Shown here in pieces: positions 31,284 to 57,095 of a stretch of 64,000 bases of DNA. Origin of the DNA: Paracoccus marcusii (lineage in GTDB: Bacteria; Pseudomonadota; Alphaproteobacteria; Rhodobacterales; Rhodobacteraceae); the NCBI RefSeq assembly GCF_028621715.1, contig NZ_CP117466.1:1-64000 (forward strand). Direction: 5' to 3'. The notes under the pieces were generated by a model that did no database searches, was not told the origin of the DNA, and worked only from the letters and a program-made list of their open reading frames with translations. The position numbers were made by a program, and so were the translations under genes. Numbering within the stretch: the stretch's first letter is position 1; the number at the start of each line of letters is the position of its first letter.

Positions 31284-31391
31284 GATGTCCTCTGGTTGGC
31301 GCAGCGGGGGCCTAGGGCGAAACGGCGCTCAGCGCAAGCATTGCGGCGGTAGGGTGCCGATCCGAGCAGCAAAAAGCCGGGCCTGTGTGAA

Positions 31392-31405
31392 TGTAATCCT
31401 TTTCA
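31392..31405 (-). promoter_or_regulatory. LacI-type operator, copy 1
   Basis: TGTAATCCTTTTCA, read on the minus strand as TGAAAAGGATTACA, fits the shared motif TGAAA-N4-TTACA. It stands 21 bp (two helical turns) centre to centre from copy 2, 45-80 bases before the exported isomerase gene. Confidence 0.7.
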
Positions 31406-31412
31406 GACGGAA

Positions 31413-31426
31413 TGAAATCCATTACA
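31413..31426 (+). promoter_or_regulatory. LacI-type operator, copy 2
   Basis: TGAAATCCATTACA matches the same 14-bp motif. With copy 1 it makes an outer inverted repeat TGTAAT...ATTACA. Confidence 0.7.
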
Positions 31427-31470
31427 TCTGTGGACAACCCCCGGAGGAGCGGGGACCAGAGGAGAAGATC

Positions 31471-32322
31471 ATGACATTTGCAAGAACCGCCCTGATCGGT
31501 GGACTGGCCACGCTGGTGGCACCGATGGCGATGGCCCAGGATGCGGCCACGTCCGACCTGCCCATCGCGGTCCAGATGTATACGCTGCGCGACCACGGCA
31601 CGCTGGATGAACAGCTGGCCGCCGTCCAGGCGGCGGGCGTGACCGCGGTGGAGACCGTCGGCATGCAGGACAGCACCGCCGAGGACCTGTCGGCCAAACT
31701 GCAGGAATACGGGATCGAGGCGATCTCGACCCATGCCCAGCTGGCCGATCTGCGCGCCGACGCGCAGGCGGTGATCGATTTCAACAAGGCGATCGGCAAC
31801 GACGTCATCACCGTCCCCTATCTGGTCGAGGAGGACCGCCCTGCAGATGCCGCCGGCTGGACCGCCCTGGGCGAGGAGCTGGCCGCGCTCAGCGAGACGC
31901 TGCAGGCGGCGGACATGACGCTGGCCTATCACAACCACGATTTCGAGATGGTCGAGTTCGACGGCCGCACCGCGCTGGAGATCATGATGGAGGCCGCGGG
32001 CGAGGACGTCATGGCCGAGCTGGACCTGGCATGGGTCGCGCGCGGCGGGTTGGACCCGGTCGAGTATCTGGGCCGTTTCGACGACCGCGTCTTTGCGATC
32101 CACGCCAAGGACAACGCCCCCGAGGGCGAGGCCGAGGACGAGCGGGGCTTCAAGGCGCTTGGCGAAGGCACGCTGGACTGGGCTGCGATCCTGCCAGCCG
32201 CCGAGGAGGCCGGCGCGCAGTGGTACATCATCGAGCATGACCAGCCCTTGGACGCCGCCGAGGTCGTGATGACCGGTGCCACCTTCCTGACGGAAAACCT
32301 GCCGGACAGCGCCACGCGCTGA
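31471..32322 (+). CDS. exported sugar isomerase/epimerase (TIM barrel, AP-endonuclease-2 fold)
   Basis: A 283-residue protein with a Sec signal peptide (MTFARTALIGGLATLVAPMAMA, cleaved before QDAAT). The xylose-isomerase-like barrel then contains VQMYTLRDHG, DMTLAYHNHDFEM, AELDLAWVARGG, FAIHAKDN and WYIIEHDQ, whose acidic and His residues form the usual metal site. Secretion of this fold is unusual; the mature enzyme should act in the periplasm. GAGGAGA precedes the ATG at 31471; the reading frame upstream to 31282 covers the operator region and is not coding. Two operator copies control it. Substrate inferred to be a 3-keto or other modified hexose. Confidence 0.82.
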   Translation: MTFARTALIGGLATLVAPMAMAQDAATSDLPIAVQMYTLRDHGTLDEQLAAVQAAGVTAVETVGMQDSTAEDLSAKLQEYGIEAISTHAQLADLRADAQAVIDFNKAIGNDVITVPYLVEEDRPADAAGWTALGEELAALSETLQAADMTLAYHNHDFEMVEFDGRTALEIMMEAAGEDVMAELDLAWVARGGLDPVEYLGRFDDRVFAIHAKDNAPEGEAEDERGFKALGEGTLDWAAILPAAEEAGAQWYIIEHDQPLDAAEVVMTGATFLTENLPDSATR

Positions 32323-32347
32323 ACCCTCCCTGCCGGACAGGTTGACT

Positions 32348-32377
32348 GGGGCCGCGACATCGTCGCGGCCCCTTTTT
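32348..32377 (+). terminator. strong rho-independent terminator
   Basis: GGGGCCGCGAC-atc-GTCGCGGCCCC is a perfect 11-bp stem followed by TTTTT, 26 bases after the stop of the exported isomerase. Confidence 0.9.
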
Positions 32378-32437
32378 CCGTGTCGCGATGCCGGGTGGCG
32401 ATGCCGGGGCCCGCCGCGGGGGGCGGACCCGGCCGGA

Positions 32438-33196
32438 TCACATCGGGCGGACCCAGATGTTGCGGAAGCTGACATCCGCGTCATGGTCCTGCAGCTGGAT
32501 CGGCGCGCAGTCATGCGCCTCGTAGGCCGGATAGCCGATCCATTCGGTCACACCCTGGATCTGGGCGTGGTTCTGCACCACAACGCCGTTGTGCAGGACG
32601 GTGATATGGGCCGGACGGCGCAGCGCGCCTTCGTCCGAAAAGATCGGCGCCTGGAAGATGATGTCGTAGGTCTGCCATTCTTCCGGTGCGCGCGAGGCGT
32701 TCACCAGCGGCAGGTGCTGCTTGTAGATCGACCCCGCCTGCCCGTTCGCATAGGTCGGGTTCTCGAAGCTGTCCAGAACCTGCACCTCATAGCGGCTCTG
32801 CAGGAAGATGCCGCTGTTGCCGCGGTCCTGGCTGTCATGCCCTTCGTTGTTCGGCGGAGAGCGCCATTCGACATGCAGCTGCACGTCGCAGAAGCTTTCC
32901 GTGGTGCGGATGTCGCCCGATCCGCGCGCGACGCGCATCGCGCCGTCCTCGACGACCCACTCGGCGGCGCCGCCGTTCACGGATTCCCACCCGTCCAGGT
33001 TCGTCCCGTCGAACAGCACGACCGCGTCCGACGGCGGCTCGCCAGCGGGGGTCTGGACCAGCCGCGGCTCGGGGCCCGCGATCTCGGTCACGCGGGACTG
33101 GGCCTGGCGTTCCTCGCGGGTCGGCTCGGGGGCGTCCTGGGCCAAGGTGGGGGCGGCCAACGCCAGCAGCGCGGCCATCGATGTCATCAGTTTCAT
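32438..33196 (-). CDS. exported DUF1080 protein (3-keto-disaccharide hydrolase family)
   Basis: A 252-residue protein with a Sec signal (MKLMTSMAALLALAAPTLA-Q). The concanavalin-like PF06439 domain follows from about residue 58: VVLFDGTNLDGWESVNGG, SFCDVQLHVEWRSP, NSGIFLQSRYEVQVLDSF, EEWQTYDIIFQAP. Described members cleave glycosides whose sugar has first been oxidised to the 3-keto form. The ATG at 33196 follows AAAGGAC; the frame upstream to 33256 is not needed. It is the last gene of the unit starting at 36521, after the flavoprotein that could supply the 3-keto substrate. Confidence 0.85.
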   Translation of the reverse strand: MKLMTSMAALLALAAPTLAQDAPEPTREERQAQSRVTEIAGPEPRLVQTPAGEPPSDAVVLFDGTNLDGWESVNGGAAEWVVEDGAMRVARGSGDIRTTESFCDVQLHVEWRSPPNNEGHDSQDRGNSGIFLQSRYEVQVLDSFENPTYANGQAGSIYKQHLPLVNASRAPEEWQTYDIIFQAPIFSDEGALRRPAHITVLHNGVVVQNHAQIQGVTEWIGYPAYEAHDCAPIQLQDHDADVSFRNIWVRPM

Positions 33197-33252
33197 GGCA
33201 ATGTCCTTTGCGAAAGAATGCGGCCCCGGACATGCCGGGGCCGTTGGCGGGA

Positions 33253-33897
33253 TCACGTGGCCCAGGCCGGGCCGCCGTCGTATTCCAGATCGCCGATGTA
33301 CTCGCCCGGCACCGGCTCATAGCGCAGCACCTGCGTCGCACCGACTTCGGAGGTGAAGAATCCGAACAGCGTCAGCTGCTGGATCGGCGTGAACCAGTGC
33401 AGCGCCGGCAGGTCCGCCTCGGTCTGGGCCTGCGCGGTGGCCGCGGTGTCGGCCGACTGCTGCTGGTCGCGGGCCTGGATGCGCATCTCCTCCTTGGCTT
33501 GGGCCACGACGGCAGCCTGGGCGCTGGCGGCGACCATGGCCTCCTGCAGCATCTGCTGGCGCTCCTCGGCGGTCAGGTCCTCGAACGGCTTGCCGAATTG
33601 TGCCTGGGCCTCGGATTTCAGCGTGTCGATGCTGTCGCGGAACGCCGCCTGCTCCTCGGCGTCATAGCAGTCGCTGACGAACTGGGTCATGAAGGCGCCG
33701 ACGCCCGCGTCCTTGGCGCCCGGCGTGTCAGTGGCGGGAATGATCGTCTCGGCCACCTCGTCCAGAAAGGCCGCATCCTCGGGGGTGAAGAGGTTCTCTC
33801 CGGTCTCGGTCGGGACATAGGCCATCACCCGGCCCGCACCCAGCATGGCCGTCCCGGTGACGGCGGCGATCATCGTCAAAAGGTCGCGACGGTTCAT
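33253..33897 (-). CDS. Tat-exported small subunit of a GMC dehydrogenase (gluconate 2-dehydrogenase subunit 3 family)
   Basis: The protein has 214 residues. A twin-arginine signal peptide (MNRRDLLTMIAAVTGTAML, cleavage near RVMA-Y) is followed by a helical domain with FTPEDAAFLDEVAETIIPATDTPGA, the family hallmark. A Gln/Ala-rich helix (about 130-180) and WFTPIQQLTLFGFFTSEVG complete it. In characterised systems this subunit carries its folded flavoprotein partner through the Tat pore. The ATG shares its A with the TGA of the GMC gene (TGATG). The longer frame to 34263 is a shadow. Confidence 0.88.
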   Translation of the reverse strand: MNRRDLLTMIAAVTGTAMLGAGRVMAYVPTETGENLFTPEDAAFLDEVAETIIPATDTPGAKDAGVGAFMTQFVSDCYDAEEQAAFRDSIDTLKSEAQAQFGKPFEDLTAEERQQMLQEAMVAASAQAAVVAQAKEEMRIQARDQQQSADTAATAQAQTEADLPALHWFTPIQQLTLFGFFTSEVGATQVLRYEPVPGEYIGDLEYDGGPAWAT

Positions 33898-35585
33898 CAC
33901 AGATCTCCGTTCTTGAGGGCTTTGACGGCGTGATCCGCCGCACGCGCGGTCAGCGCCATGTAGGTCAGCGACGGGTTCACGCAGCTGGCCGAGGTCATGC
34001 AGGCCCCGTCCGTCACATAGACGTTCGGCGCATCCCAGACCTGGTTGTCGCCGTTCAGGACCGAGGTCTTCGGATCGCGGCCCATGCGTGCCGTGCCCAT
34101 CTCGTGGATGCCCATGCCGGGGGCATAGTCGCGGTCGACTGGCTTGACGTCCTTGACGCCGGCGGCCTCCAGGATGTCGACGGCGTCCTGCTTCATGTCC
34201 TCGCGCATGCGCATCTCGTTCTCGCGCAGGTCGACGCTGACGGACAGGACCGGCAGGCCCCACTTGTCCGTCGTGCCCCGGTCAAGCGAGATGGCGTTGT
34301 CGTGATAGGGCAGCATCTCGCCAAAGCCGGTCATGCCGATGGTCCAGTTGCCCGGCGTCGACAGGGCCTGCTTCAGGTCCGCACCGATGTTCAGTTCGGC
34401 GATGTCGCGCTGCCATCCCTGGCGGCTGGCCGATCCCTGATAGCCGAAACCGCGGGTATAGGGCCGCTCCTCGCCGTCGATATTGCGGAAACGCGGGATG
34501 TAGAAGCCCGCCGGACGGCGCCCGAAGTAGTACTTGTCGTCGAACCCCTCGACCCGGCCCTCGGCGCCGACGCGGAAATGGTGGTCCATGACGTTGTGGC
34601 CCAGCTCGCCCGACGACGACCCCAGACCGCCTTCCCAGACATCGGTGGCCGAGTTCATCAGCACCCAGGTCGAATTGAAGCTGGAGGCGTTCAGGAACAC
34701 CACGTCGGCGGTGTACTCATAGGTCATGTTCGTCTCGGCATCGATGATCTCGACCCCGGTCGCGCGCTTGCGGTCCTTATCATACAGAACCTCCTTGACG
34801 ATCGAGAACGGTCGCAGCGTCAGGTTGCCCGTGGCCATCGCGGCGGGCAGCGTCGCGGACTGGGTGCTGAAATAGGCGCCATAGGGGCAGCCCAGCCAGC
34901 ACTTGTTGCGATACTGACAGGCGACGCGGTTCTGGTCGGGCAGTGCCTCGGTGATGTTGGCCACGCGGCTGTTGATCAGGTACCGCTTGCCGCCAAAGGC
35001 GTTGCGCAGGCGTGCGGCCACGTCCTTTTCGACGATGTTCAGCGGGATGGGCGGCAGGAACTGCCCGTCGGGCAGGATGTCCAGCCCCTCGTTCGTCCCC
35101 GAGATGCCGGCAAAGCGTTCGGCATGATCGTACCACGGCGCGATGTCGGCATAGCGGATCGGCCAGTCGGTCGCGATCCCCTCGCGTTCGTTGGCGGTGA
35201 AGTCGGTGTCCGAGAAGCGATAGGACTGGCGACCCCACATCAGGCTGCGCCCACCGACGTGATAGCCCCGGAACCAGTCAAAGCGCTTGGCCTCGACATA
35301 GGGATTCTCCTGCTCGTTGGCCCACATGCCGAAGGTCTGCTCGTTCAGGGGATAGTCGCGCGACAGGACGGGATAGTTGTCCTTCATCTCCATGGTCGCG
35401 GTGCCGCGGTGGGGATAGTCCCAGGCCTCCTTGTCGGCGTTCACATAGTCGGTCAGATGCTCGATGTTGCGGCCGCGCTCCAGCATCAGGACCTTCAGGC
35501 CCTTCTCCGTCAGCTCCTTGGCGGCCCACCCGCCGCTGATGCCCGATCCGACGACGATTGCGTCGTAATGCATGTTGTCTGCCAT
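33897..35585 (-). CDS. GMC family FAD oxidoreductase (glycoside 3-dehydrogenase-like large subunit)
   Basis: A flavin dehydrogenase of 562 residues. The FAD motif is VVGSGISGGWAAKELTEKG (about 11-30), with VGGRSLMWGRQ and the catalytic region GMGIHEMGTARMG (His near 488) followed by SASCVNPSLTYMALTARAADHAV (Asn near 533). There is no signal peptide of its own; export with the Tat-signal small subunit encoded next is expected. The large/small pairing resembles lactose or glucoside 3-dehydrogenase (LacA/LacB type) and gluconate 2-dehydrogenase. A cytochrome c subunit, often third in such complexes, is not encoded nearby. AAAGGAA precedes the ATG. Confidence 0.88.
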   Translation of the reverse strand: MADNMHYDAIVVGSGISGGWAAKELTEKGLKVLMLERGRNIEHLTDYVNADKEAWDYPHRGTATMEMKDNYPVLSRDYPLNEQTFGMWANEQENPYVEAKRFDWFRGYHVGGRSLMWGRQSYRFSDTDFTANEREGIATDWPIRYADIAPWYDHAERFAGISGTNEGLDILPDGQFLPPIPLNIVEKDVAARLRNAFGGKRYLINSRVANITEALPDQNRVACQYRNKCWLGCPYGAYFSTQSATLPAAMATGNLTLRPFSIVKEVLYDKDRKRATGVEIIDAETNMTYEYTADVVFLNASSFNSTWVLMNSATDVWEGGLGSSSGELGHNVMDHHFRVGAEGRVEGFDDKYYFGRRPAGFYIPRFRNIDGEERPYTRGFGYQGSASRQGWQRDIAELNIGADLKQALSTPGNWTIGMTGFGEMLPYHDNAISLDRGTTDKWGLPVLSVSVDLRENEMRMREDMKQDAVDILEAAGVKDVKPVDRDYAPGMGIHEMGTARMGRDPKTSVLNGDNQVWDAPNVYVTDGACMTSASCVNPSLTYMALTARAADHAVKALKNGDL

Positions 35586-35618
35586 CTGGCGTTCCTTTCT
35601 AGAAATTGCTTGAGGCGT

Positions 35619-36521
35619 TCAGACGTCGCAGGTCAGCACCGCGTCGCGCAGCGATGCGGCGGCGGCCTGCGGGGCGGGGTCGCGCGGGATGAATTCCTGC
35701 GCCACCCAACCCTGATAGCCCGTGTCCCGGATCGCCCTGCAGATCGCGGGATAGTTCAGTTCCTGACTGTCGTCAGGGTCGTTGCGGCCGGGATTGCCGG
35801 CGGTGTGGTAATGCCCGAACCAGCGATGGTCGCGCATGATGGTGCGGATCACGTCGCCCTCCATGATCTGCATGTGGTAGATGTCATAGAGCAACTTGAA
35901 CTGCGGGCTTTGCAGCCGTTCGCACAGCGCCACGCCCCATGCGCTGCGGTCGCACATGTAATCGGGATGATTGACGCGGCTGTTCAGCAGCTCCATCTGC
36001 AGCACGACCCCGGCGTCGCGGGCGGCAGGCAGGATGCGCGACAGGCCCTCGGCGCAATGGCGCAGGCCGTCTTCGTCGGACATGCCCCTGCGGTTGCCGC
36101 TGAAGCAGATCAGGTTCACATGCCCCGCCTCCGCGACCAGCGGGATGTGACGCAGATAACGTTCGGTCAGTTCGTCGTGGTTGGCGGGGTCCGCCCAGCC
36201 ATCCTCCAAGCTGATCTCGGCGCCGTTGCACATCGAACTGGCCAGCCCGTGTTCGGCCAGCACCGGCCAGTCGTCCGGACCGCACAGGTCGATCGCGCCC
36301 AGGCCGGTCTGGCGGGCCAGCTGGCACAGGTCGGCCAGCGGCAGGTCGCCAAAGGTCCAGCGCGCCACGGAATGGTTGATGTTGCCCTGCAGCCCCGCAG
36401 GCTGCGCATCCTGGGCCATCAGGGGCACCGCCCCCAGCCCCGCCCCAAGCGCCGCAAGGCCGCTGGCGCCGTGAAACAGTCCGCGCCGGGTCATGGTCGC
36501 GCGTTCCGACAGATCGGTCAT
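35619..36521 (-). CDS. Tat-exported hydroxypyruvate-isomerase-like TIM-barrel protein
   Basis: A 300-residue protein whose N-terminus holds TMTRRGLFHGASGLAALGAG and a hydrophobic run ending VPLMAQDA, a clear twin-arginine signal. The barrel follows with DLCGPDDWPVLAEHGL, VNLICFSGNRRG, VLQMELLNSRVNHPDYMC, FKLLYDIYHMQIMEGD, YHTAGNPGRND and WVAQEFIP, the metal-site pattern of hydroxypyruvate isomerase-like epimerases. The ATG at 36521 has GGGAGG 6 bases upstream; a second in-frame ATG at 36494 would still keep the RR motif. First gene of the exported-enzyme unit, with an operator 50 bases upstream. Confidence 0.85.
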   Translation of the reverse strand: MTDLSERATMTRRGLFHGASGLAALGAGLGAVPLMAQDAQPAGLQGNINHSVARWTFGDLPLADLCQLARQTGLGAIDLCGPDDWPVLAEHGLASSMCNGAEISLEDGWADPANHDELTERYLRHIPLVAEAGHVNLICFSGNRRGMSDEDGLRHCAEGLSRILPAARDAGVVLQMELLNSRVNHPDYMCDRSAWGVALCERLQSPQFKLLYDIYHMQIMEGDVIRTIMRDHRWFGHYHTAGNPGRNDPDDSQELNYPAICRAIRDTGYQGWVAQEFIPRDPAPQAAAASLRDAVLTCDV

Positions 36522-36570
36522 GGTTATCCTCCCTTTGATGCAGGCCCCGGTCACGCCCTCGGGCGAAATA

Positions 36571-36584
36571 TGAAACCGTTTACA
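36571..36584 (+). promoter_or_regulatory. LacI-type operator, copy 3
   Basis: TGAAACCGTTTACA, matching the five-copy motif, 50 bases upstream of the Tat-exported isomerase gene and inside a longer GAAAT...TTTC palindrome. It shows that this gene starts its own transcription unit. Confidence 0.75.
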
Positions 36585-36622
36585 TTTCGGGGCGGAACGA
36601 CCCCCTCCTCCGGGGTCGGAAT

Positions 36623-36648
36623 GCGGCGCGGGTCACATCCCGCGCCGC
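36623..36648 (-). terminator. hairpin after the ABC transporter operon
   Basis: GCGGCGCGGG and CCCGCGCCGC form a perfect 10-bp stem with a 6-base loop, 8 bases after the substrate-binding protein gene on the minus strand. No T-run follows. It lies between that gene and operator copy 3. Confidence 0.5.
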
Positions 36649-36655
36649 GTCGTCG

Positions 36656-37591
36656 TCAGTACGGGCTGTCTTCGAAATAGAAGCTCTCGGCGTTCTCCGG
36701 GGTGATCAGCTCGGAGGCGATGATGAATTCGCCCGACATGGGCGCACCGGAGGTCAGACCCAAAGCGGTCATCTCGATCGCGGTCGAGATCATCGCCGGC
36801 GGATAGGTCACGTTCACCGGAACCGTCGGATCGCCGTCCTGGATGCGCTGGACCATCTCCTTCATCCCGGCGCCGCCGACGACGAACATCTCCTCGGTGC
36901 GGCCGGCTTGGTCGATGGCCGCCAGCGCGCCCACGGCCATGTCGTCATCCGCCGCCCAGACCGCATCGATCTCGGGGAAGCGCGACAGCCAATCCTGCAT
37001 TAGGTTGAAGGCCGTGTCGCGGTTCCAATTGCCGTGATCCATGGCCAGCACCTCGATGCCCGACCCTTCCAGCGCAGCCTCGAAACCCGCCACTCGCTCG
37101 TTGTCGACGGTGGAGGCGATGCCGCGCATCACGACGACCTTGGCGCCCTCGTCCAGGGTATCGGCGAAATACTGGCCTGCGGTGCGGCCGAAGCTGTCGT
37201 TGTCGCCTGCGACATACAGGTTCTCGATGCCCTCCTGGGCCAGGCCGCGGTCGACGACGGTGACCCAGACGCCGCTGTCGGCGATGCGCTGGATCGGGCC
37301 GGTCAGGGGCTCGGATTCGAAGGGCAGGACGACCAGTGCGTCGATGCCGCGGGTGGCCACCATGTCCTCAAGGTCCGACACCTGCTGCCCGGGATCGGAG
37401 GTCGTGGTCAGCACGAATTCCAGATCGGGGTTCGCCTCGGACAGCCGCGCGACGGTGCGTTCGGCGTGAAAGTTCAGCGCCCCCGCCCAGCCATGCGTCG
37501 CCGCCGGGATCGAGATGCCGATGGTTTCCGACAGCGCCGGGACAGCGGTCAGGCCCATCAGGGCGGTCGTGGCAATCAGGGTCTTTCTCAT
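36656..37591 (-). CDS. sugar ABC transporter substrate-binding protein
   Basis: Periplasmic binding protein of the ribose/galactose type (PBP1 fold), 311 residues. The signal peptide MRKTLIATTALMGLTAVPALS is followed by ETIGISIPAATHGWAGALNFHAE and two Rossmann-like lobes (GIDALVVLPFESEPLTG, VTVVDRGL, VVVMRGIASTVDNERVAGF, IDAVWAADDDMAVGAL). The ATG at 37591 has GGAGG upstream; an upstream in-frame start is not supported. It is the last gene of the transporter unit. Confidence 0.92.
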   Translation of the reverse strand: MRKTLIATTALMGLTAVPALSETIGISIPAATHGWAGALNFHAERTVARLSEANPDLEFVLTTTSDPGQQVSDLEDMVATRGIDALVVLPFESEPLTGPIQRIADSGVWVTVVDRGLAQEGIENLYVAGDNDSFGRTAGQYFADTLDEGAKVVVMRGIASTVDNERVAGFEAALEGSGIEVLAMDHGNWNRDTAFNLMQDWLSRFPEIDAVWAADDDMAVGALAAIDQAGRTEEMFVVGGAGMKEMVQRIQDGDPTVPVNVTYPPAMISTAIEMTALGLTSGAPMSGEFIIASELITPENAESFYFEDSPY

Positions 37592-37618
37592 GGTGTTTAC
37601 TCCTCCCACAGGTGAAAA

Positions 37619-38614
37619 TCAGCGTGCGGCGCCGGTGTTTCGCTGCAGCACGACGGCAAGGATGATGACGACGCCCTGGATGGCACCGTTCAGATAGGGG
37701 CTGACGAAGTCAGTCAGGTTCAGCAGGTTGCCGATCAGCGACAGGATCAGGACCCCCACGACCGTGCCCCATACCCGGCCGAAGCCGCCCTTCAGCAGGG
37801 TGCCGCCGATGATCACTGCGGCGATCGCCTCCAGTTCCCACAGCAGGCCCGTGGTGGCGGATGCCGATCCAAGGCGCGGCACGTACATCACGACCGCGAT
37901 GCCGACCAGCGTGCCCAGCAGGACATAGGTCATCAACCGCACCCGCAGCACCGCGACCGAGGAATAGCGCGCGACCTTCTCGTTCGAACCGATGGCGGCG
38001 CAGTGGCGACCGAAGGCGGTGTGGCGCATGGTGATCTCTCCCAGGATCGCCAGCACGGCAAAGACGATGATGGGCCAGCTGATCCCCAAGATGCCCTCGT
38101 AGTAGACGGGGCGGTACAGCTCGCGCATCTCATAGCCCAAGGACAGCGTGCCGCCGTCGGCCAGCCAGGTCACGAGGCTGCGATAGATGCCCATCGTGCC
38201 CAAGGTCAGAATGAACGCCTCGATGCCGGCGCGGGTGATCAGGATGCCGTTGATGAAGCCCGCGGCCAGTCCCGTGAACAGCGCCAGCGCAATGCCGATC
38301 AGGATGACGGGCAGCCCGCCGCCCATGCTTTCGGTCAGCATGTTCATCACCAGGATCATCAGCCCGGCGACAAAGGCCGCCATCGACCCGACGGACAGGT
38401 CCAGCCCGCCCGCGGTGATGACGAAGGTCATGCCGATGGCGATGATGCCGATGAAGGCCGACCGCGCCAGGACGTTCGTGATGTTGGCAAAGCTGAGGAA
38501 GTTCGGGTTCAGCGCCATGCCGATCAGGACCAGCACGATCAGCGCCACGATGGGCGCGACGACGGCCAGATTGACCCTGGGACGCCGGGTCGGGGCGGTG
38601 GTTGCCATACTCAT
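37619..38614 (-). CDS. sugar ABC transporter permease (RbsC family)
   Basis: A 331-residue inner-membrane permease with about eight to ten helices. The conserved ITAGGLDLSVGSMAAF segment and the GRHCAAIGSNEKVARYSS loop, which contacts the ATPase, are present, with GGTLLKGGFGRVWGTVVGVLI near the end. The start overlaps the ATPase stop as ATGA. Confidence 0.93.
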   Translation of the reverse strand: MSMATTAPTRRPRVNLAVVAPIVALIVLVLIGMALNPNFLSFANITNVLARSAFIGIIAIGMTFVITAGGLDLSVGSMAAFVAGLMILVMNMLTESMGGGLPVILIGIALALFTGLAAGFINGILITRAGIEAFILTLGTMGIYRSLVTWLADGGTLSLGYEMRELYRPVYYEGILGISWPIIVFAVLAILGEITMRHTAFGRHCAAIGSNEKVARYSSVAVLRVRLMTYVLLGTLVGIAVVMYVPRLGSASATTGLLWELEAIAAVIIGGTLLKGGFGRVWGTVVGVLILSLIGNLLNLTDFVSPYLNGAIQGVVIILAVVLQRNTGAAR

Positions 38615-40128
38615 GCGGCGCTGTCCTTTTCATGTCCGCCCTGGGAATGGTCCATCCCCATGGCCAGACGCACGATATTGCCCTCGGTCACGGCCGCGTC
38701 GGCCAGTTCGCCCACGATGCGACCAGCGTGCATGACGACCACGCGGCTGGCCAGACCGATCAGTTCGGGCATTTCCGAGGAGATGACGATGATGCTGCGG
38801 CCTTCGGCGGCCAACCGTGCGATCAGGGTATAGATCTGCTGCTTGGTGCCGATGTCGATGCCGCGGGTGGGTTCGTCGATGATGACCACCTGGGGGTCCG
38901 ACAGCAGGGTCTTGGCCAACAGCAGCTTCTGCTGGTTGCCGCCCGACAGATCGCCCACCGCCATGCCGCGTTCGGGCGCACGGATGGCGAAGTCGCCGAT
39001 GGCTGTGTCCAGCGCGGCCTCCTCGCGCTTGCGGTCGATCAGGGGGCTGCCGAACTGGTCCAGCTGGCCCAGGGTCAGGTTCTCACGAAGCGTCTTGTCC
39101 AGCAACAGACCCGCGCCCTTGCGGTCCTCGGTCAGATAGACCAGCCCGGCCCGCATCGCCTGCGAGACGTGGTTGGCGGGCAGGTCCTGCCCCTTCAGGC
39201 GCACGGTGCCGCTGCGCGGGCGCAGGCCCGCGATGGCCTCGGCCAGTTCGGTGCGCCCCGATCCGACCAGGCCGCCGATGCCCAGCACCTCGCCCCGGTG
39301 CAGCACCAGGGACGCGTCATGGACCACACCGGGGACGCTGACGCCCTGCGCCTCCAGGATCGGCTCGGCCCCGTGGGCGGCCTTGGGCGGGAACAGGTCC
39401 GACAGCTCGCGCCCGACCATCGCGGTGGCCATGTCGTCTTCGGTGACGTCGGCGGTCAGGTCCGACCGCACCATCGTGCCGTCGCGCAGGACGGTCACGC
39501 GGTCGGCGATGCGCTTGACCTCGCCCAGCTTGTGCGAGGTGTACAGGATCGCCACCCCTTCCGCCCGCAGGCGGTCGATCTGGGCGAACAGCACCTCGGT
39601 CTCGCGTTCGGTCAGCACGGCGGTCGGTTCGTCCATGATCAAGACGCGCGCCTTGCGCGACAGGGCCTTGGCGATCTCGACCATCTGCTTGTCGGGGACC
39701 GAGATGCGGTTGACCGGCGTGCCCGGATCGACCCGGCACTGCAGCTGGCCCAACAGATCGGCCGTCTGCGCCCGCATCGCCTTGTGATCCAGCAGCAGCC
39801 CGCGCCGCAGTTCGCGGCCCAGAAAGACGTTCTGATCGACCGACAGGTGTTCGGCCAGGTTGAACTCCTGATGGATCATGATGATGCCCAGATCCTCGGC
39901 CTCGTCCGACCCGGCAAAGGTGATGGGCTTGCCCTGCCACGTCACCTGCCCGCCCGTGGGGTCCAGGTATCCGGCCAGGATCTTCATCGTCGTGGACTTG
40001 CCTGCGCCGTTCTCGCCGATCAGGGCGTGGACCTCTCCGGGATGCAGGGCGAAATCGACACCGTGCAGGATCTCGATGGGACCAAAGGACTTGGTGACGC
40101 CGTTCAGCGCCAGGATGGGATCGGTCAT
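38611..40128 (-). CDS. sugar ABC transporter ATP-binding protein (RbsA/MglA type)
   Basis: A double ATPase of 505 residues. The first domain has Walker A GENGAGKST (about 38-46) and Walker B VLIMDEPTAVL. Its signature region VPDKQMVEIAKALSRKA is degenerate, as usual in this family. The second domain has GLVGSGRTELAEA in place of a full Walker A, the signature LSGGNQQKLLLAK, and VVIIDEPTRGID. The ATG at 40128 overlaps the upstream dehydrogenase stop (ATGA); the frame extending to 40734 is that gene's shadow. Confidence 0.94.
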   Translation of the reverse strand: MTDPILALNGVTKSFGPIEILHGVDFALHPGEVHALIGENGAGKSTTMKILAGYLDPTGGQVTWQGKPITFAGSDEAEDLGIIMIHQEFNLAEHLSVDQNVFLGRELRRGLLLDHKAMRAQTADLLGQLQCRVDPGTPVNRISVPDKQMVEIAKALSRKARVLIMDEPTAVLTERETEVLFAQIDRLRAEGVAILYTSHKLGEVKRIADRVTVLRDGTMVRSDLTADVTEDDMATAMVGRELSDLFPPKAAHGAEPILEAQGVSVPGVVHDASLVLHRGEVLGIGGLVGSGRTELAEAIAGLRPRSGTVRLKGQDLPANHVSQAMRAGLVYLTEDRKGAGLLLDKTLRENLTLGQLDQFGSPLIDRKREEAALDTAIGDFAIRAPERGMAVGDLSGGNQQKLLLAKTLLSDPQVVIIDEPTRGIDIGTKQQIYTLIARLAAEGRSIIVISSEMPELIGLASRVVVMHAGRIVGELADAAVTEGNIVRLAMGMDHSQGGHEKDSAA

Positions 40129-41231
40129 GGCGTCACCTGGACCCAGGCCACATCCGCCGCGTTCGACCGGATGCAGGCGTCGATGAACTGCAACCCCTCC
40201 AGCCCGTCGCGGATGCCGGGAAGGGTGTCGGGCATGGTGCCGCTGCGGATCGCCTGCGCGGCCTCGGCATAAAGGTTCGCGAACCCCTCCAAGTATCCTT
40301 CCGGATGGCCGGGGGGCACGCGGCTGCCGTCCTGGGTGCTGCCCGGCCCGGCGCGGCGCAGGATCTGCGCCGGCTTGCCGAAGGGGGTGTATCTCAGCGT
40401 CTCGGGCGTGTCGTGCTGCCATTCCAGGCCGCCCTTGTCGCCATAGACCCGCAGCCGCAGGCCGTTCTCCGTTCCCGGCGCCACCTGCGAGGCCCACAGC
40501 ATCCCCTTGGCCCCCGACGCATAGCGCAGCAGGATGTGCGCGTTGTCGTCCAGCCTGCGGCCGGGGACGAAGCTGGTCAGGTCCGCGGCCAGCCGGTCGG
40601 GCAATTCGCCAGTAACGAACCGCGCCAACTGGAACGCATGCGTGCCGATGTCGCCGATCGCGCCGCCGGCGCCCGCGCGTTCCGGGTCGCCGCGCCATGC
40701 GGCCTGCTTGCTGTCCGTGTCCTGGGTCAGCCAATCCTGGGCGTATTCGACCTGGACCAGCCGCAGCGTGCCCAGATCGCCGCGCGCGATCATTGCCCGG
40801 GCCTGCCGGATCTGGGGATAGGCGGAATAGTTGTGCGTCAGGATGAACAGCGCATCGGACCGCCCGGCCACGTCGGCCAAGGCCTGCGCCTGATCCAGCG
40901 TCGCGGTCATCGGCTTGTCGCAGATGACATGGATGCCCTGTTCCAGAAAGGCGCGCGACACGGGTTCATGCAGGTGGTTCGGGGTGCAGACCGACACGGC
41001 CTCGATCCCGTCGGGACGGGCAGCCTCGTCACGTGCCATCTGGCGGAAATCGCCATAGCTGCGGGTGATGCCCAAGGCACGCGCACTCTCGGCCGCGCGC
41101 GTCTCGTCCGAGGACAGCGCGCCGGCGATCAGGTCGAACCGGCCATCCAGCCGCGCGGCGATGCGATGGACGTTGCCGATCATCGCCCCCTCGCCGCCCC
41201 CGACCATGCCCAGACGGATCGGGCGGTTCAT
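40125..41231 (-). CDS. Gfo/Idh/MocA family oxidoreductase
   Basis: A cytosolic NAD(P)-dependent sugar dehydrogenase, 368 residues. The Rossmann motif is LGMVGGGEGAMIG (about 7-19), followed by VCTPNHLHEPVSRAFLEQG and the family signature VICDKPMT (Lys near 102). GGAIGDIGTHAFQLARFV holds the conserved D/H catalytic residues. In 3-keto-sugar pathways such enzymes interconvert 3-keto and hydroxyl sugars, which fits the exported GMC and DUF1080 enzymes nearby. Overlaps both neighbours by 4 bases. Confidence 0.9.
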   Translation of the reverse strand: MNRPIRLGMVGGGEGAMIGNVHRIAARLDGRFDLIAGALSSDETRAAESARALGITRSYGDFRQMARDEAARPDGIEAVSVCTPNHLHEPVSRAFLEQGIHVICDKPMTATLDQAQALADVAGRSDALFILTHNYSAYPQIRQARAMIARGDLGTLRLVQVEYAQDWLTQDTDSKQAAWRGDPERAGAGGAIGDIGTHAFQLARFVTGELPDRLAADLTSFVPGRRLDDNAHILLRYASGAKGMLWASQVAPGTENGLRLRVYGDKGGLEWQHDTPETLRYTPFGKPAQILRRAGPGSTQDGSRVPPGHPEGYLEGFANLYAEAAQAIRSGTMPDTLPGIRDGLEGLQFIDACIRSNAADVAWVQVTP

Positions 41232-42280
41232 CGGGACAGCCCCAGCATGCGGCGGTTGGCTTCCATGTCGGCACCCCCATCGGCGAAATCGTCAAAAGCG
41301 CGGTCGGTCACGCGGATGATGTGGTCGCGCACGAAGGCCGCCCCTTCGCGGGCGCCGTCCTCGGGGTGCTTGATGGCGCATTCCCATTCGACCACGGCCC
41401 AGCCGTCGAACCCCATCACCGCCAGCTTGGAAAAGATCGCGCCGAAATCGACCTGACCGTCGCCCAGGCTGCGGAAACGGCCGGCGCGCTGCGCCCAGGG
41501 CTGAAATCCACCATAAACGCCCTGCCGACCAGTCGGGTTGAATTCGGCGTCCTTGACATGGACCATGCCGATCCGGTCGGCATAGATGTCCAGGTTCTCA
41601 AGGTAATCAAGCTGCTGCAGCAGGTAGTGCGACGGATCATACAGCATCTTGGCCCGCGGATGCTGGTCCAGACGGTCCAGGAACATCTCGAAGGTGACGC
41701 CGTCGTGCAGGTCTTCTCCGGGATGGATCTCGAAGCAGATGTCGACACCGCGGCTGTCGGCATGGTCCAGGATCGGACGCCAGCGGGCGGCCAGTTCGTC
41801 GAATGCCGCCTCGACCAGGCCCGCGGGGCGCTGCGGCCAAGGATAGAAGTACGGCCAGGCCAGCGCGCCCGAGAACGCCGCCATCCGGTCAAGGCCAAGG
41901 TTGGCCGACGCATCGATGGTCTTGCGCATCTGGTCCACCGCCCACGCCTGACGGGCCGTCGGATTGCCCCGCAGCGTGGCCGGCGCGAACCCGTCGAACG
42001 CCTCGTCAAAGGCCGGATGGACGGCGACCAGCTGACCCTGGATATGGGCCGACAGTTCGGTGACGGCCAAACCGTTGGCCTGCCCCTTCAGATCGTCGCA
42101 ATACGTGGTCGAGATCGCGGCCAGATCCAGGTCGATCAGTGCCTCCGCCCCCGACGGCACCTGCACGCCCAGATAGCCGCAATCGGCAGCCCATGCCGTG
42201 ATCGCGCCAAAGCTGTCGAACGGTGCCTGCGGGCCCACGAATTGGGCCAGGAAAAGGCCGGGGCCCTTGATCGTCTTCAT
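41228..42280 (-). CDS. cytosolic sugar (phosphate) isomerase/epimerase
   Basis: A 350-residue xylose-isomerase-like TIM barrel without a signal peptide. Metal-site segments are VDICFEIHPGEDLHDG, KMLYDPSHYLLQQLD, IGMVHVKDAEFNP and FDGWAVVEWECAIKHPEDGA. GGGAGG precedes the ATG. First gene of the transporter unit, divergent from the LacI gene with two operator copies between. It may complete isomerisation of the imported sugar. Confidence 0.88.
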   Translation of the reverse strand: MKTIKGPGLFLAQFVGPQAPFDSFGAITAWAADCGYLGVQVPSGAEALIDLDLAAISTTYCDDLKGQANGLAVTELSAHIQGQLVAVHPAFDEAFDGFAPATLRGNPTARQAWAVDQMRKTIDASANLGLDRMAAFSGALAWPYFYPWPQRPAGLVEAAFDELAARWRPILDHADSRGVDICFEIHPGEDLHDGVTFEMFLDRLDQHPRAKMLYDPSHYLLQQLDYLENLDIYADRIGMVHVKDAEFNPTGRQGVYGGFQPWAQRAGRFRSLGDGQVDFGAIFSKLAVMGFDGWAVVEWECAIKHPEDGAREGAAFVRDHIIRVTDRAFDDFADGGADMEANRRMLGLSR

Positions 42281-42332
42281 ACATCCTCCCGGAACTTCCC
42301 CTCCGAAGTTCCCCTTGCCCGATTCCGCGTCA

Positions 42333-42346
42333 TGTAATCGGTTTCA
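42333..42346 (-). promoter_or_regulatory. LacI-type operator, copy 4
   Basis: TGTAATCGGTTTCA, on the minus strand TGAAACCGATTACA, in the divergent gap between the isomerase and lacI-type genes. It is 53 bases from the isomerase start. Confidence 0.75.
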
Positions 42347-42364
42347 TCTGACGTTCTCACAGGA

Positions 42365-42378
42365 TGAAAAGGTTTACA
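42365..42378 (+). promoter_or_regulatory. LacI-type operator, copy 5
   Basis: TGAAAAGGTTTACA, 32 bp (three helical turns) centre to centre from copy 4 and 50 bases before the repressor's GTG. It suggests autoregulation together with control of the divergent transporter unit. Confidence 0.75.
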
Positions 42379-42427
42379 ACATCAATTTTTCCGCTAAGCC
42401 TGATGCTGTCCCGAACAAAGGTTTCTT

Positions 42428-43453
42428 GTGTCAGATCAATCGCGTCCACCCCGAATCCATGATGTCGCCAAGCTGGCGGGGGTGTCCGTGGCGACGGTCA
42501 GCCGGGCCATCTCGAACCCGTCGATCGTGTCGGAAACCACGCGCAAGGCAGTCGAGGCGGCGATCGCGCAGACCGGCTATACGCTGAACTTCACCGCCCG
42601 GAACCTGCGTCAGCAGCAGGTGGGCGGCGTGCTGGCGCTGGTGCCGAACCTGGCCAATCCGTTCTTCTCGCAGATCCTGTCGGGCATCTCCGAGGTGCTG
42701 CGCCGCCACAACCTCAGCCTTTTGGTGATGGACACGACCGCGGTGCCTGACCAGCCGGCGATGAAGGTGCTGGGCCCCTATCTGACGCGGTCGCGCTCGG
42801 ACGGGGTGATCGTGCTGGACGGGCAGATGGAGCCGGGCCTGTTCGCCAGTCCCGGCTGTCCGCCCCTGGTGCAGGCCTGCGAATGGATCGACGGCCTGTC
42901 CGCCCCCCGCGTGCTGGCCGACAATGTCGAAGGGGGCCGCCTGGCCGCCCGGCATCTGACCGACCTGGGGCACCGCCGCATCCTGCACCTGACCGGGCCG
43001 CAGGGCAGTTCGCTGACCCTGTCGCGCCGCCAGGGCTTCCTGCAGGGTCTGGCGCAGGCGGGGCTGCCCGATCCCGACCCCGGGGACAGCATCACCGGTG
43101 ATTTCACCGCCCGGTTCGGCCAGCAGATGGCCGCGCAGGTGCTGGCCATGCCCGACCGTCCCACCGCGGTCTTCTGCGACAACGACGAAATGGCGATCGG
43201 CCTGATGCACGGGCTGATCGTGGCCGGGCTGCGGGTGCCGCAGGACATCTCGGTCATGGGGTTCGACAACATCGAGATGGCGGCCTACAGCAGCCCCGGC
43301 CTGACCACGATCCGCCAGCACCGCGCCCGCCTTGGCCGGCGCGCCGCCGAAGTCCTGCTGGCCCGCATGCAGGGCCAGCAGGTCACCGACAGCATCACCC
43401 TCGGCGTCGATCTGGTGGTCCGTGCCAGCACCGGACAGGCGGCAAAAACGTGA
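42428..43453 (+). CDS. LacI family transcriptional repressor
   Basis: The 341-residue protein has an N-terminal helix-turn-helix RIHDVAKLAGVSVATVSRAI (about 9-28) and the hinge helix around TARNLRQQQ. A PBP1-type ligand domain follows (VLALVPNLANPFFSQILSGI, VLADNVEGGRLAARHL, TAVFCDNDEMAIGLMHGL, ISVMGFDNIEMAAYSSPGLTTI). The start is GTG with a weak ribosome-binding site. It sits beside the genes it most likely controls; five operator copies across the cluster fit a dimeric LacI protein, possibly looping between paired sites. Confidence 0.93.
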   Translation: MSDQSRPPRIHDVAKLAGVSVATVSRAISNPSIVSETTRKAVEAAIAQTGYTLNFTARNLRQQQVGGVLALVPNLANPFFSQILSGISEVLRRHNLSLLVMDTTAVPDQPAMKVLGPYLTRSRSDGVIVLDGQMEPGLFASPGCPPLVQACEWIDGLSAPRVLADNVEGGRLAARHLTDLGHRRILHLTGPQGSSLTLSRRQGFLQGLAQAGLPDPDPGDSITGDFTARFGQQMAAQVLAMPDRPTAVFCDNDEMAIGLMHGLIVAGLRVPQDISVMGFDNIEMAAYSSPGLTTIRQHRARLGRRAAEVLLARMQGQQVTDSITLGVDLVVRASTGQAAKT

Positions 43454-43502: not shown

Positions 43503-44066
43503 ATGGCCCGCCGCAACAGGATGACGATGCCCGACCCCACGCTGCCCGAAGCCCTGCGCGCCCAGATCGCGCGGTCGCGGATCGCCATTTCCCTGGCGGC
43601 GGCGATGCCCGACATGCCGCTGTGCATGGTCAACGACGCCTTCTGCCGGCTGACCGGCTTTGACGCCGATGACAGCTTGGGCCGCAACTGCCGCTTTCTG
43701 CAATCCTCCGCAACGCCGCGGGACCAGATCGGCGCGATGTCGCGGTTCCTGGCCGACGATGCACAGGACGACGGGCGGTTCCCGGTTATGAACCGCACCC
43801 GCGATGGGCGGTCGTTCATGAACTTGGTGTTCATGTCCAAGCTGCGCGGCGGCGACGGCACGCTGCGTTTCGTGATCGGGTCGCAGTTCGACGTGACCGC
43901 ATCCGATGCGGCAGGAACGATCGCGCGCGATGATGTGGCACTTAGCCGCAACATGGCGGACTTGCGCCGGGCCGCGGGACAGTTCGGACTGATCATGTCG
44001 GATTCCACGGGGCTGATCGCCCGTTCGATCAGCACGCTTGCAAGGATCACGTTGCGCGATGAATGA
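43503..44066 (+). CDS. short LOV-domain blue-light photoreceptor
   Basis: A 187-residue protein with one LOV (PAS) domain (about 38-145). The FMN-binding signature GRNCRFLQ is intact, with the adduct-forming Cys at residue 63. VNDAFCRLTGF, the RTRDGRSFMN strand with conserved Asn, and RFVIGSQFDVT with the flavin-contacting Gln are also present. A helical tail of about 40 residues follows, with no output domain, as in short LOV proteins. The gene lies 49 bases after the repressor. The coding region of a CheB-CheR kinase begins inside its last three codons, so the two are probably partners. Confidence 0.88.
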   Translation: MARRNRMTMPDPTLPEALRAQIARSRIAISLAAAMPDMPLCMVNDAFCRLTGFDADDSLGRNCRFLQSSATPRDQIGAMSRFLADDAQDDGRFPVMNRTRDGRSFMNLVFMSKLRGGDGTLRFVIGSQFDVTASDAAGTIARDDVALSRNMADLRRAAGQFGLIMSDSTGLIARSISTLARITLRDE

Positions 44067-47000
44067 CGCCTCGCCCGCACGCGCCACCACGCGTCCGCCC
44101 TTCGCCGTCGTCGGCATCGGCGCCTCTGCCGGGGGACTCGAGGCGCTGCACGACCTGCTGCGTGACGTCCGGCGCGAGGATCCGGCTGCCTATGTCGTCA
44201 TCCAGCACCTGGACCCGACGCATGACAGCGTTCTGGCCGAACTGCTGGACCGGCGCACCGCGCTCAGCGTGCAGCAGGCGACCGACGGCACGGTGCTGCA
44301 GCCGGGTCATGTCTATACCATCCCCCCCGGCGCGCGGATGCTGATCAGCGACGGACGCCTGCACCTGACCGATTTCGACCAGCCGCGCGGGCTGCGCCGC
44401 CCGATCGACGACTTCTTCGAAAGCCTGGCGCATGACCGCGGCCCGGCCGCTGCCTGCGTGATCCTGTCGGGCACGGGGGCGGACGGCACGTTGGGGCTGC
44501 GCGCGGTCAAGGAACATGGCGGCATCTGCGTCATCCAGGAACCGCGTACCGCCCGGTATGACGGAATGCCCCTCTCGGCGCAGTCGACCGGGCTGGTGGA
44601 CTATGTTCTGCCGCCGGAACGGATCGTGCCCGCCATCCTGCAGTTCTTCGACTCCAGCGAAACGCAGCAGGCCGACGACGCGATGCTGGCCGATGCGCGG
44701 CTGATCTGCCAACACCTGCTGGACCGGTGCGGGCACGATTTCTCGGGCTACAAGATGACGACGCTGGTGCGGCGCATCCGCCGGCGGCTGCAGGTCCTCA
44801 ACATTGCCGGCACGCGCGACTATCTGCGCCATCTGCAGCGCCATCCCGACGAATGCGAGGCGCTGCTGAACGAGTTCCTGATCAACGTGACGCGGTTCTT
44901 CCGCGACCCCGAGATGTTCCAGGCCCTGCGCGAACAGGCGATCCGCCCGATGGTCGCGGCCGCCGACGGAGAGGAGCTGCGCGTCTGGGTCGCCGGCTGC
45001 TCATCCGGCGAGGAGGCCTACTCCGTCGCGATGCTGATCGATACGGAAATGCGCGCCGCCGGGTTGCGGCCCCGCTTCACCGTGTTCGCCAGCGACATCG
45101 ACAAGAAGATGATCGAGATCGCCCGCGCCGGCACCTATCCGATCAGCGCCCTGGCCGACATCCCCGAGGAGATGCGCGCGGCCTATACCACACATCGCGA
45201 CGCGCTGATGCAGATCACGCCGCAGCTGCGCGACCGGGTGCGTTTCTCGCTGCATTCGGTGCTGCGCGATCCGCCCTTTGCGCGGGTCGACCTGATCTCC
45301 TGCCGCAACCTGCTGATCTATCTGGACGAAGATCTGCAGTCTCAGGTGCTGCCGCTGTTCCACTATGCCCTGCGCCCCGGCGGCTACCTGTTCCTGGGCC
45401 CGTCCGAAGGGGTGCGTCGCGAATCCATGCACTTCACCGAGCTGGACCGCCCCGCGCGGCTGTTCCAGCGTGACGCGACGCCCGCGCGCCTGCCGCTGGA
45501 CATGCCGTTCCTGCGGTCCGAGGGCGACCGCCCCTCCCCCGGCCCCCGCAGCCGCAAGGCCGAGGACGGCGCGGCCCGCGACGGGGCCCTTGCCGCACAG
45601 CGCAGGGTGCTGGACCGGTTCGCGCCCGCCTCGCTGCAGGTGTCCCCTGCGGGAGAGGTCCTGTGGACGGCGGGCAGGCTGGGCCGTTTCCTGGCCGTCG
45701 ATCCGACCGCCAGAAAGCCGATCCTGGCACCGCAGATCGTGCATCCGGGCCTCAAGGAGGCGGTGACCGCCGCGCTGGACCAGGTGGCCGGAACGGGCCG
45801 CGCGGCCATCCTGCGCAACCTGCTGGCGCGGTCCGACCTGGGGGCGCAGCCGGTGACCCTGTTCGCGGAGCCTCTGCCCGACCGCAGCGTCCTGCTGGTG
45901 TTTCACGACGCGGGCGCACAGGCCCTGCCCGACACGCTGGACGAGACGGACGAGCTGAGCGTCACGGAATCCCGGTCGGACCTGCTGGAGGAGCAGCTGC
46001 GCCTGACGCGGATCGAGCTGCACGGCGCCGTCCAAGAGCTTGAGACCGCGAACGAGGAGCTGAAGAGCTCGAACGAAGAAATGATGTCGATGAACGAGGA
46101 GCTTCAGTCCACGAACGAGGAGCTGAGCACCGTCAACGACGAGCTGAAGTCCAAGATCGACGATCTGACGGCCGCCAACAGCGACCTGCAGAACTTCTTT
46201 TCCGCGACCAAGATCCCCCTGCTGGTGGTCGACCGCGACGTGCGGGTGCGCAACTTCACCGCCGCGGCGCTGCAGATCTTTCCGCTGCGCCGGTCCGATC
46301 ACGGCCGCCCCCTGGCCGACGTGTCCAACGTCTTCGCCAGCGACGTCCTGCTGTCGATGGCGGCAGAGGTGGCCCGCCAGGGCGAGGCGCAGGGAACCGA
46401 GCTGGTCGAGGCCGGCGGCACCCGCGTCTGGCGCGTCGACGCCAAGCCCTATCGCGGCCCCGAGGGGCATCTGGACGGCGCCATGCTGGTCTTCGAGGAC
46501 GTCACCGCGCTGCGCGACCTGCGCGTCGAGGTCGAGCGGCAGGAGGAGCGGCTGAACGCGGTGCGGTCCATGGCGCGGATCGCGGTCTGGCATTACGACG
46601 CCGCATCGCGGATGCTGACTATCGACGACAGCTCGGACCTGCTGGGCCTGGGCCAGACGGCGCAGCTGCCGCTGTCGGCCTTTGCGGCCCTGATCGCGCC
46701 CGCCGACCGTGACGGGCTGCTGGCCGACCTGCAGGCCTGCGCCGCGGGCACGGCCTTTCGGCGTGTCGTGTCGCCTTCGTCCGACGCACGCTCCGCCGTG
46801 CGGTTGGAGACGGCGGCCGCGCGGTTCGGGAGCGACGACGGCGATTGCCGCGTGCTGGGGGTCATGCTGGACGTGACCGCCGCGCAATCGGCCGCCACGC
46901 TGCGTGAAGCGGTGATTTCCGAGATGGACCACCGGGTCAAGAACCTGTTCACCCAGATCTCGGCGATGCTGCGGATGGCAGCCCGCGAGACCGACGACGC

Positions 47001-56334: not shown

Positions 56335-56979
56335 ATGGTTGAATGGATCATCAGCAGCGGCCTGACCGCGCATGCCGACGCCGTGGCCCTGATGGAGGAT
56401 CGCGTGGCGCAGATCCATGCAGGCCAGGCCCCCGAGGCCGTCTGGCTGGTCGAACACCCGCCCCTGTACACGGCCGGGACCAGCGCCCGCCCCCAGGACC
56501 TGCTGGACGCGCGCTTTCCGGTGCACCAGACCGGGCGGGGCGGTCAGTACACCTATCACGGGCCGGGCCAGCGCGTGGCCTATGTCATGCTGGACCTGAA
56601 CCGGCGCGGCCGCGACGTGCGCGCCTTTGTCGGACAGCTGGAGGGGTGGGTGATCGACGCGCTTGCCAGCTTCGGCGTGTCAGGCCAGATCCGCGAGGGG
56701 CGCGTGGGCGTCTGGGTGCCGCGTCCCGACAAGCCCCCCCTGCCCGATGGCCAGATGCGCGAGGACAAGATCGCCGCCATCGGCGTCAAGCTGCGCCGAT
56801 GGGTCAGCTTTCACGGCATCGCCGTCAACGTGGACCCCGACCTGTCGCATTACGGCGGAATCGTGCCCTGCGGGATCAGCGGGCACGGCGTGACCTCGCT
56901 GGTCGATCTGGGGCTGCCGGTGGGGATGGCCGATCTGGACGTGGCGCTGCGCCAGGGTTTTGCGCGCACATTCGGCTAG
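56335..56979 (+). CDS. lipB: octanoyl-[ACP]:protein N-octanoyltransferase
   Basis: LipB moves octanoate from acyl carrier protein to lipoyl domains, the first step of lipoic acid attachment. It has 214 residues. Conserved parts are [49 protein letters not shown] (catalytic Lys) and the [14 protein letters not shown] block (catalytic Cys). The ATG at 56335 gives the family N-terminus; the frame upstream overlaps the tRNA gene. Confidence 0.93.
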
Positions 56980-57095
56980 GCCGGCGATCAATTCTTTCAA
57001 TGCGACCTTTCGATGGCTGGATTTCCGGGGCGCGTTGGTCCTACGGTGCTCTTCGGGAGACCACGGCCCCTCCAGGGCCCAGCGAGGAACTACGC

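Follow-up and report, generated by a model that had tools for sequence, protein, structure and literature searches.

The window analysed here, a 64,000-nucleotide stretch within the 3.18 Mb genome of Paracoccus marcusii, carries eleven genes between positions 31471 and 43453 that we interpret as a LacI-controlled locus for the nonhydrolytic utilization of 3-keto-type glycosides. Judged by homology, active-site residues, export signals, gene order and operators, this scheme as a whole has a probability of roughly 78%. Most probably the cluster cleaves sugar bonds through oxidation and then elimination, as has been described for other bacteria. The families and export signals given for the eleven genes in a first-pass annotation of this DNA agreed with our assignments, and the main change concerns what had been called isomerases.

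In the proposed pathway, a GMC flavoprotein, exported by a partner with a twin-arginine translocation (Tat) signal, would oxidize glycosides at C3 in the periplasm, and an eliminase exported by the general secretory (Sec) route would split the resulting 3-keto-beta-glucosides into the aglycone and 2-hydroxy-3-keto-glucal. A DUF1080 protein would cleave other 3-keto-glycosides, probably alpha-linked ones, by elimination and perhaps hydration. An Rbs-type importer would take up 2-hydroxy-3-keto-glucal and/or 3-keto-glucose, a cytosolic hydratase would convert the enone to 3-keto-glucose, and a Gfo/Idh enzyme would reduce the latter to glucose. Finally, a Tat-exported triosephosphate isomerase (TIM) barrel, here called TatTIM, would most likely serve to rearrange 3-keto-sugar units in the periplasm, with two glutamates handling the proton transfer, either by C4 epimerization (for example, 3-keto-galacto to 3-keto-gluco) or by moving the keto group, and its action would broaden the substrate range of the cluster. 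It is from the evidence below that we infer the activities in the strain, the compartment of each step, including the split between periplasmic elimination and cytosolic hydration, the imported species and the role of TatTIM.

Two genes carry this interpretation. The first (31471..32322, plus strand) encodes a predicted Sec-exported 3-keto-beta-glucoside eliminase of the OGE type, with 283 amino acids. The protein is 58% identical to Agrobacterium protein P0241, which in turn shares 99% identity with PDB chain 8bvk over the aligned part. The accessible text of Bitter et al. 2023 (PMC10628242) describes 8BVK as the O-glycoside beta-eliminase AtOGE, which converts 3-keto-phlorizin into phloretin and 2-hydroxy-3-keto-glucal. 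As shown by alignment, His154, His156, Asp185, His211 and Glu255 correspond to AtOGE His132, His134, Asp163, His189 and Glu233, residues named in the same text, and the HNH/D/H/E metal-catalytic set is complete. Because of the 58% identity and the kept metal and catalytic residues, the protein is, on sequence grounds, a beta-eliminase and not an isomerase. The second gene (41228..42280, minus strand) encodes a protein that matches PDB 8ro4 over its whole length (542 bits), starting at residue 1 in both, and has no signal extension. Since 8ro4 was deposited as a 2-hydroxy-3-keto-glucal hydratase, what had been annotated as a cytosolic isomerase is, by homology, a hydratase, and we call it cytosolic because of the end-to-end match. 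Thus, with an AtOGE-like and an 8ro4-like gene, the cluster appears to possess both lyases of the four-step route known from the literature rather than two isomerases. Cleavage by hydrolysis alone was rejected in view of the hydratase.

The remaining genes fit around these two. The eliminase gene is an outlier on the plus strand, and all other genes except the divergent lacI lie on the minus strand in the order, from the lacI side, hydratase, Gfo/Idh/MocA, importer (ATPase, permease, binding protein), TatTIM, GMC, PF13618 subunit and DUF1080. The GMC flavoprotein (33897..35585, minus strand; PF05199/PF00732), the predicted large subunit of a glycoside 3-dehydrogenase, has no signal of its own, and its PF13618 small subunit (33253..33897, minus strand; 121.5 bits) carries the RR-type Tat signal MNRRDLLTMIAAVTGTAMLGAGRVMA, as the first-pass annotation had stated. 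The Gfo/Idh/MocA oxidoreductase (40125..41231, minus strand; PF22725, PF02894 and PF01408; 463 bits to PDB 3v5n) is a predicted 3-keto-glucose reductase. Its presence, and that of an ABC importer (36656..40128, minus strand, three genes), was borne out by family or reading frame. The importer consists of an RbsB-like periplasmic sugar-binding protein (36656..37591; PF13407, 152 bits), an RbsC-like permease (37619..38614; PF02653, with 184 bits to NF007067, under its cut-off of 398) and an RbsA-like ATPase of 505 amino acids (38611..40128). The ATPase was assigned by reading frame and position rather than Pfam, and it has an orthologue at the same place in six of eight distinct related loci. 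The LacI-family regulator (42428..43453, plus strand; PF00356 and PF13377) is syntenic in related loci. Export signals were assessed by eye and with a crude script; the script over-calls, flagging the window's hydratase and 29 of 48 hydratase open reading frames (ORFs), and was not used as proof.

The claim that these genes form one regulon held up well. The operator pattern ATGWAANSSNTTWCAT is a 16-base LacI-like palindrome, and it was found as a tandem pair upstream of the eliminase gene (31391-31406 and 31412-31427), as a single site upstream of TatTIM (36570..36585) and as a pair between the hydratase gene and lacI (42332-42347 and 42364-42379). A sixth match, at 33181, overlaps the DUF1080 gene start; it was not counted as an operator. 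At two or fewer mismatches, the window contains 6 matches versus 0.37 expected, a number reached in 0 of 100 shuffles. The whole genome, at one mismatch or fewer, has six places, five of which lie in the cluster, and the backward-pattern control gave none. Since the pattern was derived from the cluster's own sites, these counts test exclusivity and not discovery. Nine related loci were compared; two of them (L106 and L002) are on the same contig, leaving eight distinct ones, and the operators recur at orthologous positions in these eight. The tandem pair is present in 8/8, the TatTIM site in 6/8 at one mismatch or fewer, and at least one site of the lacI pair in 6/6 distinct loci that have the junction. 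Two loci (L109 and L110) show a compact form, in which lacI is divergent to TatTIM-GMC-small subunit-DUF1080 with the eliminase gene opposite; the block is without importer, reductase and hydratase, and the best hydratase relatives (72-73% identity) are elsewhere in the same genomes.

The first-pass annotation had considered this arrangement undescribed. It has been described for Agrobacterium and in large part for Caulobacter, and the two systems together cover the pathway it had drawn. According to the available passages of Bitter et al. 2023 (PMC10628242), Agrobacterium tumefaciens has a four-enzyme glucoside operon, GlycDH/TAT-AtOGE-AtHYD-Gfo, which oxidizes, eliminates, hydrates and reduces. 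The window shares with it a GMC dehydrogenase with a Tat-signal small subunit, the eliminase, a hydratase (by homology) and, by family assignment, a putative Gfo reductase within the operon. The hydratase of the Agrobacterium operon was, in these passages, assigned on preliminary evidence only (PMC10628242). Neither a DUF1080 protein nor a Tat TIM barrel is named there, whereas the window has both, and the paper's main text, as available, nowhere uses the word periplasm (PMC10628242).

In Caulobacter, as far as the accessible text tells, LacABC, a DUF1080 protein, a transporter, two epimerases and a reductase are important for lactose use (PMC9007349). Compared on this description, the window matches it in the LacABC-type dehydrogenase, the periplasmic DUF1080 protein, the transporter, the two sugar epimerases and the reductase. 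The Caulobacter locus differs in having LacC and was studied on lactose, with the steps after cleavage left open in the portion available (PMC9007349). The window brings together a GMC protein, a small subunit and a signal-bearing DUF1080 protein in one cluster, in the manner of a LacABC/DUF1080 system. LacA and LacB are the GMC protein and the small subunit, and LacC is presumably a cytochrome c. No CxxCH-containing ORF lies near the cluster genes, the only two of at least 80 amino acids in the 64-kb window being at 48823-49116 and 56343-57533. In five related loci (L028, L066, L076, L047 and L063), a cytochrome c-like CxxCH ORF was found within 1.5 kb of the GMC or small-subunit gene.

The same chemistry as in the window reportedly operates in gut bacteria, for which Nasseri 2024 and Kastner 2024 are said to describe pathways of oxidation, elimination, hydration and reduction, with a Bacteroides 3-keto-glycoside lyase said to be of the DUF1080 family. 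The oxidation step in Bacteroides is catalysed by a Gfo/Idh enzyme, whereas the window uses a GMC protein. Oxidation, elimination, hydration and reduction are also the steps of the levoglucosan pathway of Bacillus smithii, as given in the accessible part of its description (PMC7676230). That pathway begins with levoglucosan dehydrogenase, and the window's Gfo protein is far under the cut-off of that family (NF052479; 118.3 versus 650 bits).

Export of the eliminase is not new either. Agrobacterium proteins 96-99% identical to the crystallized eliminase carry an N-terminal export extension; the N-terminus of P0242 reads MKTFKSKLAGMAFVVGLAAGFANPVFA, and P0241 and P0247 are called ten residues later, with a shorter start. 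Novelty of the exported TIM barrels was ruled out since P0241 and P0242 have an extension absent from the crystallized chain, and the idea of a cytosolic Agrobacterium eliminase, suggested by the 259-residue PDB chain, was dropped once that extension had been found. We surveyed 205 different eliminase relatives from two lists, each holding the best 120 matches. The core motif occurs in 192 of them, all 192 with an N-terminal extension, and 172 of these pass a strict signal rule; in the other 20 the extension fails the rule, mostly for want of a Lys or Arg ahead of the hydrophobic stretch. Among the 13 relatives without the core motif, 11 merely have Phe for Tyr with a similar start, 1 has a longer N-terminus and 1 is a fragment. 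The full set of site motifs is kept in 189/205. By these sequence features, exported eliminases are the rule among the relatives listed. A class-wide eliminase search (20 of 387 genomes) returned besides the window's gene solely relatives of at most 39% identity and did not reach the Agrobacterium type.

TatTIM tends to occur alongside GMC and DUF1080 genes. Neighbourhoods were taken from the best 80 TatTIM loci, 20 of which extend under 8 kb in one direction, and the counts stand without a random-locus control set; thresholds were at least 400 bits for the hydratase, 20 bits for DUF1080 and 300 bits for a strong eliminase. GMC with its small subunit was near TatTIM in 56/80 loci, DUF1080 in 48/80 and the hydratase in 46/80. 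GMC, hydratase, Gfo and DUF1080 occur together in 41/80, and neither GMC nor hydratase in 22/80. DUF1080 tracks GMC closely, being present in 46 of 57 loci with GMC versus 2 of 23 without it. A strong eliminase was found in 9/80 loci, three from Rhodobacterales and six from Luteimonas/Lysobacter/Pseudoxanthomonas/Xanthomonas/Stenotrophomonas. An identical 11-gene order was found in P. hibiscisoli, P. sediminilitoris and Celeribacter.

Within Paracoccus, TatTIM and DUF1080 occur in the same 13 of 101 genomes, and the eliminase in those 13 plus one more (G027, 86% complete). Because the genes are neighbours, their joint distribution reflects a single mobile or inherited unit and not independent co-occurrence. 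In the additional genome (locus L114, contig C77), LacI-hydratase-Gfo-importer-GMC-small subunit and the eliminase are present without DUF1080 and TatTIM, and Ketogulonicigenium robustum (L112) likewise has a cluster without these two genes. Because both clusters do without them, the beta route looks self-sufficient. The L114 copies of the GMC protein and the small subunit also score as more distant, with 1105 and 157 bits versus 1252 and 297 for those of L002, and because of this, replacement of the entire TatTIM-GMC-small subunit-DUF1080 block accounts for the pattern as well as a joint gain of the two genes does. Hydratase relatives of at least 60% identity occur in 80/101 Paracoccus genomes, far more than carry the other genes of the block, so such hydratases probably function in other operons too. 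In Paracoccus liaowanqingii, the eleven-gene block (L107/L113) lies on a 255 kb plasmid, and an equal-scoring hydratase copy is on contig C1 (G005).

Two further neighbourhoods were recorded. On plasmid pTi6.2 of Rhizobium rhododendri (L111), importer, LacI, hydratase and Gfo genes stand together with an eliminase match that spans query residues 1-156 only, and no GMC match was found in that stretch. In two alphaproteobacterial genomes of one family (L097 and L100), DUF1080, a small subunit, a distant eliminase-like TIM barrel and GMC lie within 4 kb, perhaps a Caulobacter-type lac locus.

Of the two exported TIM barrels that had been called isomerases, both with the predicted signals (Sec and Tat), TatTIM (35619..36521, minus strand; PF01261) is the only cluster TIM barrel that plausibly remains an isomerase or epimerase. 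Its signal RR is invariant in 17/17 aligned sequences. In the fold comparison (VIA-align), the nearest structures were 3ngf, 1k77 and YcjR (6wn6), that is, isomerases and a 3-keto-D-glucoside 4-epimerase; eliminase 8bvk and hydratase 8ro4 are not among the 50 fold matches listed, which by itself is uninformative. Glu177, Asp213, His239 and Glu276 align with the YcjR ligands, and sequence similarity to YcjR is weak. TatTIM misses the curated cut-offs for hydroxypyruvate isomerase (TIGR03234, 94.1 versus 353.45) and 2-oxo-tetronate isomerase (NF043033, 94.4 versus 325). On these comparisons TatTIM is closer to isomerases and 3-keto-sugar epimerases than to lyases. In four Flavobacteriaceae loci (L020, L037, L053 and L079, around 10000-10870), TatTIM stands alone beside CTP synthase- and YidC-like genes, as judged from N-termini, and because of this solitary occurrence it may function where no GMC gene is nearby.

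These features leave some room for a cluster devoted mainly to one substrate, lactose or another galactoside, in which TatTIM turns 3-keto-galactosyl into 3-keto-glucosyl units before or after cleavage. The YcjR-like ligands speak for it. So does the presence of TatTIM in Indibacter alkaliphilus LW1 (L018) and Halomonas/Vreelandella titanicae (P0046), which are among the lactose users with LacA and DUF1080 in the accessible text of Price et al., who leave the fate of 3-ketogalactose open there (PMC9007349). The weak similarity to YcjR counts against such a specialization, which we regard as a tentative possibility. Somewhat less probable is a lyase role for TatTIM, which would make it the third 3-keto-glycoside lyase of the cluster, directed at other linkages or anomers. 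Its nearest folds are isomerases and epimerases, and it lacks the catalytic His that the eliminase has at the second position past its first metal ligand (ELL/ELF in four TatTIM rows versus HNH in the eliminase and EIH in the hydratase). A bolder combination, no better placed than the galactoside specialization, is that TatTIM is an unrecognized periplasmic 3-keto-glycoside epimerase or keto-shift isomerase that would supply many Bacteroidota and Proteobacteria with a missing step (e.g., in handling the 3-keto-galactosyl unit derived from lactose) and that the enone 2-hydroxy-3-keto-glucal crosses the inner membrane to be hydrated only in the cytosol. In the open-licence literature we recognized no assignment of TatTIM, although Nasseri 2024, Kastner 2024 or Arellano 2010 (cited in PMC9007349) may contain one, and found no work on YcjR-type activity.

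The DUF1080 protein (32438..33196, minus strand), with its Sec signal and PF06439 domain (154 bits), was as previously annotated, a predicted 3-keto-glycoside lyase/hydrolase. Among solved structures it comes closest to 4qhz (256 bits), a deposition labelled putative glycosyl hydrolase, and it scores no more than 20-21 bits against 8tda and 8rr2, which we take to be characterized Bacteroides lyases. A His in an LQxH motif near the C-terminus (His238 in the window) is invariant in 49/49 rows, comprising the window and 48 sequences from related loci, 31 of which are weak matches (23-41 bits). We assume that the relevant Bacteroides lyase is a DUF1080 protein. Its H275N variant cleaves a 3-keto-alpha-glucoside by elimination and is hydration-deficient, according to the available part of a 2026 paper. 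Because of this variant and the LQxH His, with His238 taken as equivalent to H275, the window's DUF1080 protein may eliminate and hydrate by analogy, perhaps on alpha-linked substrates.

It is unlikely that the DUF1080 protein simply hydrolyses 3-keto-glycosides in the periplasm, with both exported TIM barrels isomerizing the keto-sugar before import and reduction. PF06439 is named 3-keto-disaccharide hydrolase, and the accessible text of Price et al. proposes periplasmic DUF1080 hydrolysis in Caulobacter (PMC9007349). The kept eliminase site in a protein 58% identical to the Agrobacterium enzyme, the glucal hydratase in the operon, and the cluster that retains eliminase, hydratase and reductase without DUF1080 and TatTIM all argue against it. 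Accordingly, C3 oxidation and cleavage outside the cytoplasm (by signals), import and reduction survive from the first-pass order of steps, and cleavage becomes elimination plus hydration rather than simple hydrolysis. Free sugar oxidation, with the GMC enzyme acting on a polyol, fructose or glucose, is very improbable, since the eliminase and hydratase fit 3-keto-glycosides and the gene set is that of the Agrobacterium glycoside operon, even though the nearest solved relatives of the GMC large subunit are those of fructose and glucose dehydrogenases.

A PAS-domain ORF elsewhere in the window (PF13426; 43332-44066, plus strand) contains GRNCRFLQ, the motif of LOV-type photoreceptors, and is followed by a fused CheB-CheR-PAS-HWE kinase (44038-47460).

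Taken together, these results replace the isomerase annotation with that of a predicted eliminase and a predicted hydratase in a cluster seen repeatedly in Rhodobacterales, and they leave one conserved exported enzyme, TatTIM, with a role that would be directly testable on known intermediates.

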